A stretch of DNA of 57,079 bases from positions 1 to 57,079 of the forward strand of contig JADZAQ010000180.1 in assembly GCA_020852555.1 (NCBI GenBank), in the 5' to 3' direction. A program made the translations under genes and the position numbers. Positions 17,320 to 23,428 of this stretch are shown piece by piece. Under the pieces are notes generated by a model. The model made no database searches and was not told the origin of the DNA. It saw only the letters and a list, made by a program, of their open reading frames with translations. Numbering within the stretch: the stretch's first letter is position 1; each line of letters starts with the position of its first letter. The stretch comes from Burkholderiales bacterium (GTDB taxonomy: Bacteria > Pseudomonadota > Gammaproteobacteria > Burkholderiales > Casimicrobiaceae).

Positions 17320-17360
17320 GGAAGAATTCGACGGGGAAGAAAGTTTGCGGAGCCCCGCGG

Positions 17361-17429: not shown

Positions 17430-17906
17430 TTGCCATTGTCACCTGACGCCACGCTCATCGAGCACTCGAACATCGGGGAGATCCTGCAGCACATTCCCCA
17501 TCGCTACCCGTTCCTGCTCATCGACCACGTCGTCGCCTGCGAGCCGCACCGCTTCGTCCGCGTCGCCAAGAACGTGACGCGAACCGAGTGGTTCCTCGCC
17601 GGTCGCAGCCCCGCCGTCATGCCGCCGTTGCTCGTCGTGGAAGCACTCGCGCAGGCGGCCGGCGTGCTGTGCCATTACTCGGGCATGATGAGCCGGATCG
17701 GGAAGTCCATCATCTTCTTCGCCGCCATCGAACACGGCACCTTCGGCCGCGATGTCGCAGCCGGTGAACGCCTCGATCTCGTCTGCACGCTCAACCAGGC
17801 GCGACGCGGCGTCGCCAAGCTCTCGGCGGCGGCCACCGTCGACGGCGCCACCGTCGTGGAGGCGCAGCTGACCGCGGTCGTGCGGGACATCGACCGCGCA
17901 CCGTGA
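17430..17906 (+). CDS. FabZ-like hotdog dehydratase-family protein lacking the usual catalytic His
   Basis: 158-residue hotdog protein resembling 3-hydroxyacyl-ACP dehydratase FabZ: IPHRYPFLLIDHVV near the start and MPPLLVVEALAQAAGVL at about residues 64-80 align with the FabZ core, including the active-site Glu. In FabZ the preceding segment reads GHFPG; here the equivalent reads AGRSPAV, so the catalytic His appears to be Arg. It may bind acyl-ACP without dehydrating it, or act differently. The only suitable starts are TTG 17430 or TTG 17436, with GAGGATCGG upstream. Divergent from etfB and convergent with a methyltransferase gene. Confidence 0.8.
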   Translation: MPLSPDATLIEHSNIGEILQHIPHRYPFLLIDHVVACEPHRFVRVAKNVTRTEWFLAGRSPAVMPPLLVVEALAQAAGVLCHYSGMMSRIGKSIIFFAAIEHGTFGRDVAAGERLDLVCTLNQARRGVAKLSAAATVDGATVVEAQLTAVVRDIDRAP

Positions 17907-17940
17907 CGGCATGGCGCAGGCGTCGTGCGGAGGAACGGCG

Positions 17941-18762
17941 TCAGGCGGCGGCGGACGCCTTGTAGATGTCGAGCCGCCACAGCGAGCGACCGCGGACCTG
18001 CTCGAAATCGATGACACCCCCGTCCTTCAGCTCGCTCAGCAACGCCAGGTGCTCGTTGAGTTCGGGGCTGAACGGCACGAGCTTGGACGCGAGCTTCTCG
18101 ACACGCTGCGGGAAATGGCGCTCGGCCGCGTCCAGGATGCGTCGGACATTGGATAGGCTCAGCACCGGGAAATACAGCGCGCCACCGGGATCGAGGTGCG
18201 CGCCCGCCTCGGCGAGCATTTGTACCGCGAGGTCGGCGCCATCGGCGCCCCCGAGAGGAACGCCGTCGGGGAACCACGAGCTCTTCCTCGCGACGACTTC
18301 CGCGACGCCCGAGACGTCGTCGACGATGACGTCGAAGCGCCGGCCACCGAACGGCGCGAAGAGACTCCCCGTGACCACTTCGACCCGATCCGCGAGGCCA
18401 TTGACGAGCACGTTACGCCGCGTGAGGTCACAGGCGTGCGGCATCACGTCGGAGGCGACCACCCGCGCCGCGCCGGCCATGGCGAGCGCGATGGCGATGG
18501 GGCCCGAACCGCAGCCGAGGTCGAGCGCGGTCTTGCCCGCAACGCCGCCCGCCAGCACCTGCTCCAGGAGCAAGCGCGTGGTCAGCGTCGGCCGGAACAC
18601 CCCGGGTGCCTGCGCGAGCTTCATCGCGAGGCCGCAGACGAGGTACGGCTCCACCTCGCCGCCCGCGGCAATCGGTTCCAAGCAGTCTCCAGACGACACT
18701 GGGGTCACCACGTATCCTTTCTCCACCGCTCTCGCCGCCGCGCCGCTGCGGAATGCCGGCAT
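17941..18762 (-). CDS. class I methyltransferase, MTS-like
   Basis: 273-residue predicted SAM-dependent methyltransferase. Motif I is TALDLGCGSGPIAIALAMAG and the following acidic strand is ARVVASDVMPHACDLTRRNV. The position held by NPPY in N6-adenine or glutamine methyltransferases reads VDDVSGVAE here, so those substrates are unlikely. The N-terminus (GYVVTPVSSGDCLEPIAAGG) resembles a substrate-recognition lead-in. No partner gene is on the same strand; it is convergent with the FabZ-like gene, 34 bp between stops, and lies upstream of rpfC in the opposite direction. Substrate unknown. Confidence 0.78.
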   Translation of the reverse strand: MPAFRSGAAARAVEKGYVVTPVSSGDCLEPIAAGGEVEPYLVCGLAMKLAQAPGVFRPTLTTRLLLEQVLAGGVAGKTALDLGCGSGPIAIALAMAGAARVVASDVMPHACDLTRRNVLVNGLADRVEVVTGSLFAPFGGRRFDVIVDDVSGVAEVVARKSSWFPDGVPLGGADGADLAVQMLAEAGAHLDPGGALYFPVLSLSNVRRILDAAERHFPQRVEKLASKLVPFSPELNEHLALLSELKDGGVIDFEQVRGRSLWRLDIYKASAAA

Positions 18763-18911
18763 CGTACGCTATCGCGATTGCGCCGGACGCGGCGCAACAA
18801 TTGGAGCATGCGCGCACCGCGATGAGCCGACGCGACCACGGGCGGCGTCGCCGTACTCCGGGGGCTCGCGATGCCAGACCAGGCGCGCGCCAGGGCCAGC
18901 CGCCCGCGAGG

Positions 18912-18927
18912 TGGCACAAATGCTGCT
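18912..18927 (+). promoter_or_regulatory. sigma-54 (-24/-12) promoter for rpfC-like gene
   Basis: TGGCACAAATGCTGCT matches the RpoN consensus TGGCAC-N5-TTGCW with one mismatch. The invariant GG (18913-18914) and GC (18925-18926) have the required 12-base offset. Transcription would begin near 18938, leaving about 47 bases before the ATG at 18985. It is intergenic and correctly oriented. A sigma-54 promoter requires an activator, which is not encoded beside it; PilR in this window is of that class but there is no evidence it acts here. Confidence 0.65.
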
Positions 18928-18984
18928 TAAGAGCGAGAATTGAAACTTCATCGCCAACCGGCACTTCGCCCCCGCGCACTCACC

Positions 18985-21540
18985 ATGCTGCTCGTCGCGC
19001 CGCTCAAAGCACGGCTTGCCGCTCGCCAGGACAGCGAGCACGAGCAGGCATTGCTCCGGATCGTCATCATCGGACTGGTCCTGGCCTACATGGCCGTCTT
19101 CCACGGCTGGGTGAACCGCTGGACCGATACCGATCTCCACATCGTTCGCGTCCTGAGCGGCTTTCTGGGCGTCGCCGTCGCGATCTTCTTCGCCATCTGC
19201 GTGGACCCCGCGCCGAACAAGCCGCGACGGATCGTCGGCATGGTCGCGGACGCAACGGGATGCACTTGGTACATGAGTGTCGCCGGCGACTACGGGTTCT
19301 TCGTCATAGGCATCTTTCTCTTCATCACGTTCGGCAATGGCTTCCGCTACGGACGAAGATACCTGTTTTTGTGCCAAGCGATGTGCGTCGCCGGGTTGAC
19401 GGGGGTTCTCCTCTTCGTTCCTTACTGGCAAGAGCGGCGTGTCGAGGGAGTCGGATTGCTCATTGCGCTGCTGGTCCTCCCCGTCTACGTGTCGACGTTG
19501 CTCAGGCGCATCCACGAGGCGCGGGCGCGTGCGGAGGAAGCCAACGTCGCGAAATCGACCTTCCTCGCCAACATGAGCCATGAGATCCGGACGCCGCTGA
19601 ATGGAATCGTCGGTGTCGTCGATCTCTTCGAGGCGACCGAACTTAGCGCGCAGCAAGAAGAACTGGCCCACCTGCTGCGCCACTCGGTCGCGGTATTGCG
19701 TTCGCTGGTCGACGACGTACTGGACATCAGCAAGATCGAAGCCGGCAAGGTCTCGGTGGAAGTGGAGAGTTTCGATCTCCACGCCACGATCGGAGGTCTC
19801 ATCGCGCTGCTGCGGCCGCACGCGCAGGAAAAGGGACTCGCTCTGCATGCTTCGATCGATCTCGAGATCGATTACCGGCTCAAAGGCGACCCGCACCACT
19901 TGCGCCAGGTGCTGCTCAATCTCCTTACCAACGCGATCAAATTCACCGAGCGGGGCGAAGTCGGTATCCATATCAGCCGCAAGCAGGAAACCAGCGAGGG
20001 GGTCACGGTCCGATTCGAGGTTCAGGACACCGGCGTCGGCATCCCCGAGCATGCGCTGACTCGCATCTTCGACCGCTTCGTGCAAGCTGATCAATCGACG
20101 ACAAGACGATTCGGGGGCAGCGGACTGGGGACGACGATTGCCAAGCAGTTGGTCGAGTTGATGGGTGGCGGTATCGGCGTGTCCAGCGTCGTCGGTGAGG
20201 GCTCGACCTTCTGGGTCGAACTGCCGTTCCTGCGCGACGTATCCGGGACGCATGCGGACGAGCCACCGACTGGCAAGCGCGGTCGCATCCTGGTCGTTGC
20301 CGACGAGGCTCGAGCACAGCTTGTCTTGCCGACGTTGAAGGCCATCGCCGAGTCTACGGAATGGGTCCGCCCGTCGGAGTCCTTCGGATCGACGCTCGAC
20401 GCGATGATCCGCTCGGGGGTCGAGTTTCGCGGCATCGTGGTCGCCGACAGCGTCGATACCGCGTGCTCCTGTTTCGCGGCGGCGATCCAGCGGCTTGGAA
20501 ACCGCACGCCGGCGCTGCTTCATGTTACGGATCGGGCGCTCACGGTCGTGGACAGCGCACGCATCAAGAGCATCCGGCAGGCTCACGTCTTAGCGCTTCC
20601 CGTCGATCCGAGGCTCGTTGTGAACGCGATTCACGCGGCAACGGCCAACGTAGCCAGCGTCGAAGACGAACGAGCCAACCTTGCCCAGGCGATCCGGCAA
20701 GCGCGGAGACGATTGCACATCCTGGTGGCTGACGACAATCAGACCAATCGCGCGATTCTCATCCGCCTCCTGGCGTCGGCCGGGCACACCGTCGTCGAGG
20801 CGACCGATGGCGAGCAGGCGCTGGATGTCTACGAACGTGACTCCCCCGACATGGTGCTGGTCGACTTCAACATGCCGCTCCGAAGCGGGCTCGAGGTTGT
20901 CAGCGCGATTCGAATGATGGAGTCGGTCGGACGGCATGCGCCGCTGATCGTGCTGTCCGCATCGGTGACGCCGGATACACGCCATCGTGCACTGGCTGCC
21001 GGCGCCGACGACTTCTTCGGCAAGCCACTCGAGGCGGCCGCGCTGATCCGAAGGATGGATGCGCTCGCTCGCGCGATACCGATCGACCGCCCGGCCCGCT
21101 CGAGCCCGCCTCCCACATCCCCGACGCACCGCGACGCCTTGGGCGCCCCCGCGCGGGTGCACGTGCCCGGTGCAGCCCGGGGCGGAAGTCTCGACTACGA
21201 GCGACTGCAAGAGATCGAAGAAATCTCCGGCGATCCCGAATTCATGGCAAGACTCCTGCGTGGCTTCGTCGCTGATTTTCGCGGACTGCAAGCGCGTCTC
21301 GAGACGGCCGTCGCGGGGAACGATGGCGCGGACATACCCGATATCCTTCATGCCATGAAGGGCGCGGCAGCCGGCGTGGGAGCGATGCACCTCGCGGATC
21401 TTTGCGATCCCACAAGAACCTCGGTCGGAGACGACGCGCCAGAAGCGCGCCAACTGGTGAGTCGTCTCCGTACCTCGATCACGCGCACCTTCGAGGAGTT
21501 GGATGCATATCTACACACGAGGCACCACGTATCGCTCTAG
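18985..21540 (+). CDS. rpfC: RpfC-like hybrid sensor histidine kinase (DSF receptor)
   Basis: 851-residue hybrid kinase, similar in layout to Xanthomonas RpfC, the receptor for diffusible signal factor. The N-terminus (LKARLAARQDSEHEQALLR) precedes about five membrane segments to residue 175. Then come HisKA with FLANMSHEIRTPLNGIVG (His199), an HATPase domain (NLLTNAIKF, DTGVGIP, FGGSGLG), a receiver-like domain at 433-555 that lacks the usual lysine, a full receiver (VADDN, Asp627 in LVDFNMP, Lys in FGKPL) and a C-terminal HPt domain (ILHAMKGAAAGVGA, His789). Xanthomonas RpfC is about 726 residues, so the extra receiver explains the length. TTG 18940 is an alternative start, but the predicted sigma-54 start point favours ATG 18985. 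The rpfF-like gene is convergent, 32 bp away. No rpfG is in the window. Confidence 0.88.
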   Translation: MLLVAPLKARLAARQDSEHEQALLRIVIIGLVLAYMAVFHGWVNRWTDTDLHIVRVLSGFLGVAVAIFFAICVDPAPNKPRRIVGMVADATGCTWYMSVAGDYGFFVIGIFLFITFGNGFRYGRRYLFLCQAMCVAGLTGVLLFVPYWQERRVEGVGLLIALLVLPVYVSTLLRRIHEARARAEEANVAKSTFLANMSHEIRTPLNGIVGVVDLFEATELSAQQEELAHLLRHSVAVLRSLVDDVLDISKIEAGKVSVEVESFDLHATIGGLIALLRPHAQEKGLALHASIDLEIDYRLKGDPHHLRQVLLNLLTNAIKFTERGEVGIHISRKQETSEGVTVRFEVQDTGVGIPEHALTRIFDRFVQADQSTTRRFGGSGLGTTIAKQLVELMGGGIGVSSVVGEGSTFWVELPFLRDVSGTHADEPPTGKRGRILVVADEARAQLVLPTLKAIAESTEWVRPSESFGSTLDAMIRSGVEFRGIVVADSVDTACSCFAAAIQRLGNRTPALLHVTDRALTVVDSARIKSIRQAHVLALPVDPRLVVNAIHAATANVASVEDERANLAQAIRQARRRLHILVADDNQTNRAILIRLLASAGHTVVEATDGEQALDVYERDSPDMVLVDFNMPLRSGLEVVSAIRMMESVGRHAPLIVLSASVTPDTRHRALAAGADDFFGKPLEAAALIRRMDALARAIPIDRPARSSPPPTSPTHRDALGAPARVHVPGAARGGSLDYERLQEIEEISGDPEFMARLLRGFVADFRGLQARLETAVAGNDGADIPDILHAMKGAAAGVGAMHLADLCDPTRTSVGDDAPEARQLVSRLRTSITRTFEELDAYLHTRHHVSL

Positions 21541-21572
21541 CCGTCGGTCGGGCTCCACCGCCGGCGCCAATG

Positions 21573-22496
21573 TCACTGGTTCGCAGCTTCGATTTCCAGA
21601 AACGGCTCACTCTCGGCAAATTTCGCAGCGCTCGCTGTCTTGTCCTGTGCTCGCGCCAGACGCGCCATCATCCGCAAGTCTCGATGCTCGAGGGCAAGCG
21701 CCGCATCGACCCAAATATCGACCACCGCCTGCATCTCGGCGAGGCTGACGGGCTGGCAGACCCGCTTCGCTTGGGACACCGCGCGATACGCATTGCGCCG
21801 GCGCTGCCGGGTGCGGATCGAGTGATTGACGGCCTCCAGGCCTTGTCCGTCGGCAACCACTTCGTCGACGACGTGCAACTCGTGCATCTCGCGAGCGGTG
21901 AACACGCGGCCGCTCATGATGAGGTCCTCGGCCTTGGTTATGCCGATCCGGCGACTCAGTAGCGTCAGTGCGCCCATCCCCGGGAACATGTTGAACAGCA
22001 CCTCGGGGAAAGAGAACGTGGCGCTGGCTTCGGCGACGATGTACTCGCTCGCGAGCGCACACTCGAAGCCACCACCGAATGCCTTTCCCTGCACCAACGA
22101 GTACGTGACGATCCGGGCGTCATAGCCACTGATCCGCCGATGCATGTTCTCGATGCAGGCATGCGCGTAGGCGTGCAGGCGAGGCCGATTCTTCTGGATG
22201 ATCTCCTGCACGAAAAACTCGAGGTCGCCGCCCAGATTGAACACGCCGGGGAAGCGGCTCCCGAACACCGCGTTCTCAATCTTGTGCTCCCGGCCGTGAT
22301 GAAGGAACCACCCACCGTGTTTCTGAATCGCCCCTTCGAACTGCATGCTCTCGTGGAGCAGTGCCGCGTTGAAGCATGGTCTGGGTGCTGGCTTCATCCA
22401 CCAGTAGAGGGTGGAGGTGGTCGGATCGAAATCCACTTCCGCCTGACGAAGCGTGGCGGGATCGGCGTAACTGGGAAGTCCAGCGACTGCATTCAT
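21573..22496 (-). CDS. rpfF: RpfF-like DSF signal synthase (crotonase family)
   Basis: 307-residue crotonase-fold enzyme resembling RpfF, which makes cis-2-unsaturated fatty-acid signals from 3-hydroxyacyl-ACP by dehydration and thioester release. The two catalytic glutamates of RpfF are recognisable: Glu145 in GGGFECALAS and Glu165 in FSFPEVLFNMFPGMGA, exactly 20 residues apart as in Xanthomonas RpfF. FNLGGDLEFF supplies the oxyanion-hole region. ATG 22496 gives MNAVAGLPSY; upstream open frame has no match. It faces the RpfC-like kinase tail to tail, the arrangement I recall for Xanthomonas rpfF and rpfGHC. Which chain is made cannot be told from sequence. Confidence 0.88.
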   Translation of the reverse strand: MNAVAGLPSYADPATLRQAEVDFDPTTSTLYWWMKPAPRPCFNAALLHESMQFEGAIQKHGGWFLHHGREHKIENAVFGSRFPGVFNLGGDLEFFVQEIIQKNRPRLHAYAHACIENMHRRISGYDARIVTYSLVQGKAFGGGFECALASEYIVAEASATFSFPEVLFNMFPGMGALTLLSRRIGITKAEDLIMSGRVFTAREMHELHVVDEVVADGQGLEAVNHSIRTRQRRRNAYRAVSQAKRVCQPVSLAEMQAVVDIWVDAALALEHRDLRMMARLARAQDKTASAAKFAESEPFLEIEAANQ

Positions 22497-22632
22497 GATT
22501 CGGCCTCCAGGCGACGGGTGTACGGGACAGGTTGGATGCGACTCCGGACGAGATTGTGGCGCACAAGTTGGCCGATGGCTACCGGGATTCGCGGCGCATG
22601 GCGTCCAGAGCAACGGCAGTAACGTTGCCGTG

Positions 22633-22664
22633 GTCTATATGTAGACTACAACACAACTCTTGTG
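22633..22664. promoter_or_regulatory. paired palindromes upstream of rpfF
   Basis: The 212-base gap between bpt and rpfF holds an AT-richer patch with three short dyads: GTCTA/TAGAC around TATG (22633-22646), TGTAG-A-CTACA (22640-22650) and CACAA-CTC-TTGTG (22652-22664). They lie about 140-170 bases upstream of the rpfF ATG and could bind a regulator or fold in RNA after bpt. The rest of the gap shows nothing recognisable. Confidence 0.35.
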
Positions 22665-22708
22665 ATCGATCGGGGGATACGCAACCGCCACCCCCGCCGC
22701 CACCCCCG

Positions 22709-23428
22709 TTACAACCGCACCCACTCTCCGCCGCGCAGGCCCTCGATCGCGTGAAAGGTCGCCTTGTAGGCCATCTTCCGGCTCTCGGCGATCCAGTAGC
22801 CGAGGTAGAGATACTGCAGGCCCAGCTCGCGGCAACGCTCGATCTGCCAGAGCACGTTGTAGGTGCCGAAGCTCGTCCCGGTCAAGGTCGGCTCGAAAAA
22901 CGTGTAGACCGACGACAGGCCGTCGACCAGGCGATCGACGAGGCTCACCATGCGCAGCTCGCGACCCTCGCGGAACTCGTAGAGGTCGGTGTCGACGTTG
23001 CTGTGCAGGAGGAAGTGCCGGTACTGCTCGCGGCTGTCGTGGTCCATGCCGCCGCCGGGATGCCGCAGCCGCTGGTAGCGCAGGTACAGCGCGTAATGCT
23101 CGGTGTCGTAGGCGAGTTCGCGGCGGGTGACGCGCAGCTCGGTGCAGCGGCGGGCGATCTTGCGCTGGGTCCGGCTCGCTTCGAAGGCGGCGACCGGGAT
23201 GCGCACCGGCACGCAGGCCCGGCAATGATCGCAATAGGGCCGATAGGTGAAGGCGCCGCTGCGCCGGAAGCCGAAGCGAACGAGCTCGCTGTACACGCGG
23301 GCATCGATGAGATGGCTCGGCGTCGCCACCTGCGAGCGGGCCACCCGGTCGGGGAGGTAGCTGCAGGGATAAGGCGCGGTCGCGTAGAACTGCAGCGACG
23401 CGAGCGGAAGATCGTTGAGCTTGCTCAC
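22709..23428 (-). CDS. bpt: aspartate/glutamate leucyltransferase (bacterial Ate1 homologue)
   Basis: 239-residue aminoacyl-tRNA-protein transferase adding leucine to N-terminal Asp or Glu, a step of the bacterial N-degron pathway. The N-terminal Cys motif is visible as PCSYLP plus [16 protein letters not shown], and the C-terminal GNAT-like fold includes [20 protein letters not shown] and [15 protein letters not shown]. The start is GTG 23428, which overlaps the aat stop (GTGA), so the two transferases are translationally coupled. Length matches the family only with this start. Confidence 0.93.

Follow-up and report, generated by a model that had tools for sequence, protein, structure and literature searches.

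A putative DSF signal-and-receptor gene pair exchanged as a cassette at one locus, with an unlinked RpfG-like gene as its probable output, in a genus of Burkholderiales

The window analyzed here spans positions 1 to 57,079 of contig JADZAQ010000180.1 of a Burkholderiales bacterium, and the element under study is a convergent gene pair at positions 18985 to 22496, encoding an RpfC-like hybrid sensor kinase and an RpfF-like crotonase. A reading from the letters alone (the original prediction) had taken this pair for a diffusible signal factor (DSF) quorum-sensing module outside Xanthomonas, and both open reading frames were found where it had placed them. Phylogeny and synteny showed that the rpfC-rpfF pair behaves as a cassette exchangeable as a unit; this exchange within the genus is invisible from one window alone. 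We consider it probable (roughly 0.8) that the pair is a DSF module in which signal synthase and receptor have been exchanged together onto a fixed, unlinked RpfG output. The comparison covered 80 retrieved relatives of the locus and, for the RpfC-type input domain, 61 genomes drawn from the window's genus, family, and order; the compared genomes are metagenome-assembled genomes (MAGs) with a completeness of 66 to 99%, and contig ends cut some cassettes. The features of the window were as follows.

17845 to 22716, no strand: exchanged segment, over which colinear homology with the sister species (genome G006) is lost
18985 to 21540, + strand: rpfC-like hybrid sensor kinase gene, type A, 851 amino acids (five transmembrane segments, HisKA, HATPase, pseudo-receiver, receiver, and HPt domains)
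19024 to 19047, + strand: putative DSF sensor motif R-Q-D-S-E-H-E-Q, residues 14 to 21, matching R15, D17, S18, E19, and Q22 of Xanthomonas RpfC
19048 to 19503, + strand: five predicted transmembrane segments, residues 22 to 173 (hydropathy)
19579 to 19581, + strand: His199 of the H-box (SHEIRTP), predicted phospho-accepting histidine of HisKA
20284 to 20643, + strand: extra pseudo-receiver-like domain with a predicted (beta-alpha)5 fold, between HATPase and receiver (AlphaFold2, Foldseek)
20719 to 21054, + strand: receiver domain, with Asp627 in VDFNMP (Pfam, PDB match)
21253 to 21480, + strand: HPt domain, with His789 in HAMKG (Pfam)
21573 to 22496, - strand: rpfF-like crotonase gene (predicted DSF-family synthase), type A, 307 amino acids
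22062 to 22064, - strand: Glu145 codon, predicted catalytic glutamate 1 (alignment)
22002 to 22004, - strand: Glu165 codon, predicted catalytic glutamate 2 (alignment)
17430 to 17906, + strand: gene for a FabZ-like hot-dog protein, which adjoins the cassette in several genus members

Exchange was assessed against the window's sister, genome G006, which was 96% identical in RpoB, 94% in PheS, 91% in the left flank (EtfA, EtfB, and an acyl-CoA dehydrogenase [AcDH]), and 87% in the right flank (Ate). G006 fell next to the window in the tree of either flank and in that of RpfG. The cassette of G006 was of another type and inverted relative to that of the window, with an RpfF only 41% and an RpfC input domain only 36% identical. 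Forcing the two RpfFs together cost 145 log-likelihood units (P = 6e-47 in the approximately unbiased [AU] test), and forcing the two RpfCs together cost 358 (AU P = 1e-144). Colinear DNA homology with G006 was 84% up to position 17320 and about 71% over 17470 to 17844, was absent over 17845 to 22716, and returned at 82% from 22717.

In all genus members with both sides on one contig, rpfC-rpfF lay between etfB (with the FabZ-like gene) and ate, and RpfF and RpfC trees both supported three deep types. Type A was found in the window, G002, G004, G008, G010, G011, G012, G016, G017, G018, and one copy of G015, as well as in G031 of another genus; type B in G001, G003, G005, G007, G014, and G019 and, outside the genus, in G023 and G034; and type C in G006, G009, and the other copy of G015. 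RpfC and RpfF types agreed in every genome with both assembled, and the marker tree required at least six type changes. The G+C content at third codon positions (GC3) was 0.77 in the window pair versus 0.86 to 0.90 in the surrounding genes and 0.62 versus about 0.9 in the type A copy of G015; most other cassettes matched the GC3 of their hosts, and composition is therefore only supporting evidence.

An explanation without interspecies transfer is that types A, B, and C are ancient paralogues of the family ancestor, of which each lineage kept one. The presence of types A and B in sister genera and of both A and C in G015 is in keeping with this, but within the genus every type is found at this one locus, some cassettes lying in one orientation and some in the other, so that repeated replacement there would be needed. 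Inside type A, too, the window clusters with remote members of the genus although G008 is more closely related to it. Because of this same-locus replacement and the discordance inside type A, with the deviating GC3 of the window and G015 cassettes as a further point, we regard paralogue loss as unlikely.

The types differed in the region predicted to read the signal. Xanthomonas RpfC needs sensor residues R15, D17, S18, E19, and Q22 for DSF detection, and every tested replacement of S18 except Thr lowered the DSF response (PMC5391125). All five were conserved in the window kinase (R14, D16, S17, E18, and Q21) and in all eight compared type A kinases of the family with an assembled N-terminus; types B and C each kept only one or two of the five, with Pro, Ala, Asp, Leu, or Val at the position equivalent to S18, so that among the three types the full motif was confined to type A. 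The pseudo-receiver was absent from type B RpfC, and type C cassettes carried a ketosynthase gene and an acyl carrier protein (ACP)-like gene between rpfF and rpfC, with a hydrolase gene beside the cassette. Given their differing sensor motifs, the three types probably differ in the fatty acids to which they respond or in how specifically they do so; a different signal or specificity per type is plausible.

In peptide quorum sensing, polymorphic signal-receptor pairs that arise by the swapping of cassettes are well known (e.g., agr and ComX). By analogy with such pherotype systems, three matched cassettes may have been swapped horizontally at one slot, each coding for a distinct fatty-acid signal and a receptor motif of its own and all plugging into a single conserved RpfG that is unlinked to them; close relatives would then use "dialects" that are mutually unintelligible or open to eavesdropping. 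We put this forward tentatively, at somewhat less than even odds. A literature search linking "pherotype" with DSF returned no match.

Within type C, the beta-ketoacyl-ACP synthase gene was seen at L139:9149-11439 and L142:10432-11664, and the ACP-like gene in L139, where it carries a GIDSLG motif; both genes stand in the interval from rpfF to rpfC. A 64-amino-acid piece of the latter gene's product gave no Pfam match, and the gene is called only ACP-like. It is as though the synthase came with an acyl supply of its own. Two cassettes seem to be present in G015: the low-GC3 type A copy beside ate (L223:1481-3492) and the type C copy beside etfB (L222:1097-9191), which lies about 6 kb away from an IS5-like transposase gene. 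The join between the two falls at contig ends and is only presumed.

The original prediction had noted that rpfG and rpfH were absent from the flanks and that the output must lie elsewhere or differ. Neither gene was found in the flanks, and a family search of the genome located a single HD-GYP domain, in an RpfG-like REC-HD-GYP protein of about 369 amino acids with intact HD and GYP motifs on another contig (C67:5391-6497, - strand), downstream of pheS-pheT-ihfA-merR. The gene was 84 to 90% identical in nearly every genus member and stood at pheST-ihfA-merR in most of them, wherever the surroundings were assembled and checked. Thus, rpfG does not form an operon with rpfC here, and nowhere in the genus are the two linked. 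In sister genera G023 and G034, the syntenic position was occupied by pheT-ihfA-merR-rpfG-rpfC with a convergent rpfF, and in sister genus G031 by rpfG followed by rpfF; several other order members and many gammaproteobacterial loci likewise had rpfG preceding rpfC. The simplest interpretation is that, in the window's genus, rpfCF moved away while rpfG stayed in place.

The module might instead signal without RpfG, RpfC phosphorylating another regulator or mainly binding RpfF via its receiver domain while the C67 protein serves other kinases. The genus-wide lack of linkage would fit this, as would G013 and G020, two incomplete assemblies in which rpfG was present but rpfF was not found. Against it, the C67 protein is the only HD-GYP protein of the genome, its gene is the direct counterpart of the linked rpfG of sister genera, and rpfG was kept wherever rpfCF is, except in one genome that is 87% complete. 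A separate output is, in our estimate, improbable, and we retain RpfG as the likely partner of the exchanged pair.

The genome was also searched for RpfR, the better-known betaproteobacterial partner of RpfF that the original prediction had raised. No PAS-GGDEF-EAL gene adjoined rpfF in the window; the three EAL proteins of the genome (HAMP-GGDEF-EAL, multi-PAS-GGDEF-EAL, and REC-EAL) lay on other contigs, and none was an obvious RpfR. With no EAL protein beside rpfF, an RpfF/RpfR system was rejected for the window pair. In other order members (L159:9486-11453, L029:8803-10935, and L161:6786-8822), a type C-like rpfF without rpfC was followed by a co-oriented MerR-PAS-GGDEF-EAL gene, whose product, DNA-binding-like at its N-terminus, may be a variant of RpfR; on their other side, these rpfF genes were adjoined by a gene for an acyltransferase/AMP-ligase fusion (Pfam-tested in L159 only).

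The domain make-up that had been read into the kinase was recovered by Pfam (HisKA at residues 189 to 254, HATPase_c at 301 to 415, Response_reg at 579 to 690, and Hpt at 757 to 832) and hydropathy (five hydrophobic segments at residues 22 to 40, 53 to 71, 99 to 117, 127 to 145, and 155 to 173), in the RpfC order of a five-segment input followed by HisKA-HATPase-REC-HPt. The PDB matches included the receiver domain of RpfC (3m6m_D) over residues 573 to 694. The protein begins with MLLVAPLKARLAARQDSEHEQALLRI, and this N-terminus, on whose kinship with the RpfC sensor region the earlier assignment hung, proved RpfC-like. The kinase is confirmed as RpfC-type, as judged from its domain order, five predicted transmembrane segments, and full set of DSF-binding residues. 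An extra stretch of about 150 residues between HATPase and receiver, unnoticed in the original prediction, was modeled with AlphaFold2 as a receiver-like (beta-alpha)5 fold at residues about 434 to 560 (mean local confidence score, pLDDT, of 86) and matched solved receiver domains in Foldseek, including that of RpfC (3m6m_F), at modest E values.

For the crotonase, the top four PDB matches were all RpfFs (7zq7, 3m6m, 6dgn, and 5fus; E values of 2e-47 to 6e-44), with ordinary crotonases far behind (1e-13), which places it among the RpfF synthases and not outside them. It passed PRK08788 (330 bits against a cut-off of 177), and the two expected glutamates, Glu145 and Glu165, were present 20 residues apart and invariant in 105 aligned homologues. 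The score against the strict NCBI RpfF equivalog NF053515 was 207 bits, below the cut-off of 550, as was also the case for types B and C and other order members; the enzyme is therefore a member of the RpfF branch or superfamily and not a curated equivalog. Its RpfF-type character is confirmed in these sequence comparisons, and it is a predicted DSF-family synthase. The missed equivalog model and the location of AcDH, EtfA, and EtfB about 1.7 kb from the pair might suggest a metabolic enoyl-CoA hydratase working with these neighbors, the kinase being unrelated. We consider this very unlikely, as the Etf and AcDH genes track the species tree whereas the crotonase was exchanged with the kinase, sometimes inverted, the closest solved relatives are RpfFs, and the kinase N-terminus was found only with rpfF.

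A scenario of very rapid evolution of the pair within each species, driven by diversifying selection and without exchange, is hardly credible: RpfF and the RpfC sensor are indeed the most diverged genes of the locus, but types cross genus borders in discordance with the species tree, the AU tests reject a species clade so decisively that the idea is already largely refuted, and the domain make-up itself differs between types.

The pairing is not due to chance, since an RpfC-like kinase was convergent with and downstream of an RpfF-like gene in about 51 of the 80 retrieved relatives by our own count; in the window the genes stand tail to tail, with 32 bp between the stop codons. The RpfC-type input domain was present in 22 of the 61 surveyed genomes, never more than once per genome, and adjoined rpfF in 20 of these 22, the other 2 being contig breaks or fragments, so that in these bacteria it is no general-purpose sensor.

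The pair is flanked on one side by AcDH-EtfA-EtfB, the FabZ-like protein, and a methyltransferase and on the other by arginyl-tRNA transferase (ate), leucyl/phenylalanyl-tRNA transferase (aat), and an M61 peptidase. The FabZ-like protein barely exceeded the FabZ cut-off (115.7 versus 113 bits), and the catalytic His of its GHFP motif was replaced (GRSP); homologues near the G006 and G009 cassettes also lacked this His. The HemK/PrmA-like methyltransferase gene (17941 to 18762) lay between the FabZ-like gene and rpfC, with a 47% identical copy at the same place in G011 (L144:12441-13172) and none there in most relatives. Farther afield, rpfC was divergent from rpfF in contigs of Thiodiazotropha and related symbionts (L076, L079, L082-L084, L086, and L087), with a second RpfC-like kinase on L080 and L087. 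Convergent pairs were seen in Ancylobacter, Kaistia, Roseomonas, and others (alphaproteobacterial loci L021, L024, L032, L044-L055, and similar loci), where the sensor motif was mostly R-x-D-S-E-H-E-M, with Met replacing Gln, and an HD-GYP-like or REC match lay about 2 kb beyond rpfC.

On the favored reading, RpfF would make a cis-2-unsaturated fatty acid from acyl-ACP, and RpfC would bind this signal at its short N-terminal sensor and autophosphorylate through HisKA, REC, and HPt. The phosphoryl group would then pass in trans to the unlinked RpfG-like protein of C67, which would lower cyclic-di-GMP. Genus members carry one of three deeply diverged matched pairs at the slot between etfBA and ate-aat while rpfG stays put. 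Several points weigh against this reading: the signal's identity and the phosphotransfer are predictions, the equivalog cut-off was missed, some of the exchanges could be mimicked if ancient paralogues had been lost differentially, and a kinase unlinked to rpfG could act on other response regulators. The fragmented MAGs, that of the window's own genome being 94% complete and 5% contaminated, weaken it further.

Like the genome under study, the rpfGHC-rpfF system of Xanthomonas campestris has convergent rpfC and rpfF, a five-segment RpfC with HisKA, HATPase, REC, and HPt domains, the sensor motif R-x-D-S-E-x-x-Q, the RpfF glutamates, and a REC-HD-GYP regulator. The genome under study differs from it in the unlinked rpfG at the pheST locus, the lack of an rpfH in the flanks, the extra pseudo-receiver-like domain of RpfC, and the distant RpfF. 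The RpfF/RpfR system of Burkholderia (BCAM0581) shares an RpfF superfamily synthase and presumably a cyclic-di-GMP output, but the window sensor is a membrane hybrid kinase and not a PAS-GGDEF-EAL protein. The homology to RpfC and RpfF claimed in the original prediction stood, but its novelty did not: RpfF-RpfC-RpfG clusters were already reported in Methylobacillus, Thiobacillus, and other non-xanthomonads (PMC4504480), and an RpfC-type module outside Xanthomonas, betaproteobacteria included, is therefore ordinary. In the clusters of Methylobacillus, Thiobacillus, Methylophaga, and Leptospirillum (PMC4504480, PMC8357829), rpfG was reported within the cluster, whereas here it is separated and the rpfCF pair has been exchanged. 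Stenotrophomonas maltophilia is known to have matched alleles of RpfF and RpfC at a single locus (rpf-1 and rpf-2, proposed to stem from horizontal exchange [PMC4517397]). Those are two variants in one species, differing mainly in their N-termini, whereas in the window's genus whole proteins differ (RpfFs about 40% identical), there are three types, some with extra genes, and the output is unlinked.

What is new is that, across a genus, three matched pairs of full length have been exchanged at a single slot, with an RpfG that is conserved and unlinked; the only precedent that we found for a fatty-acid DSF system was the two-variant system of the one Stenotrophomonas species. Since rpfG can lie apart from rpfC, surveys that look only for linked clusters will miss such systems. 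Three full-length pairs on a fixed output are natural test material for DSF specificity, both for the RpfF residues that select the acyl chain and for the RpfC sensor residues that recognize it.

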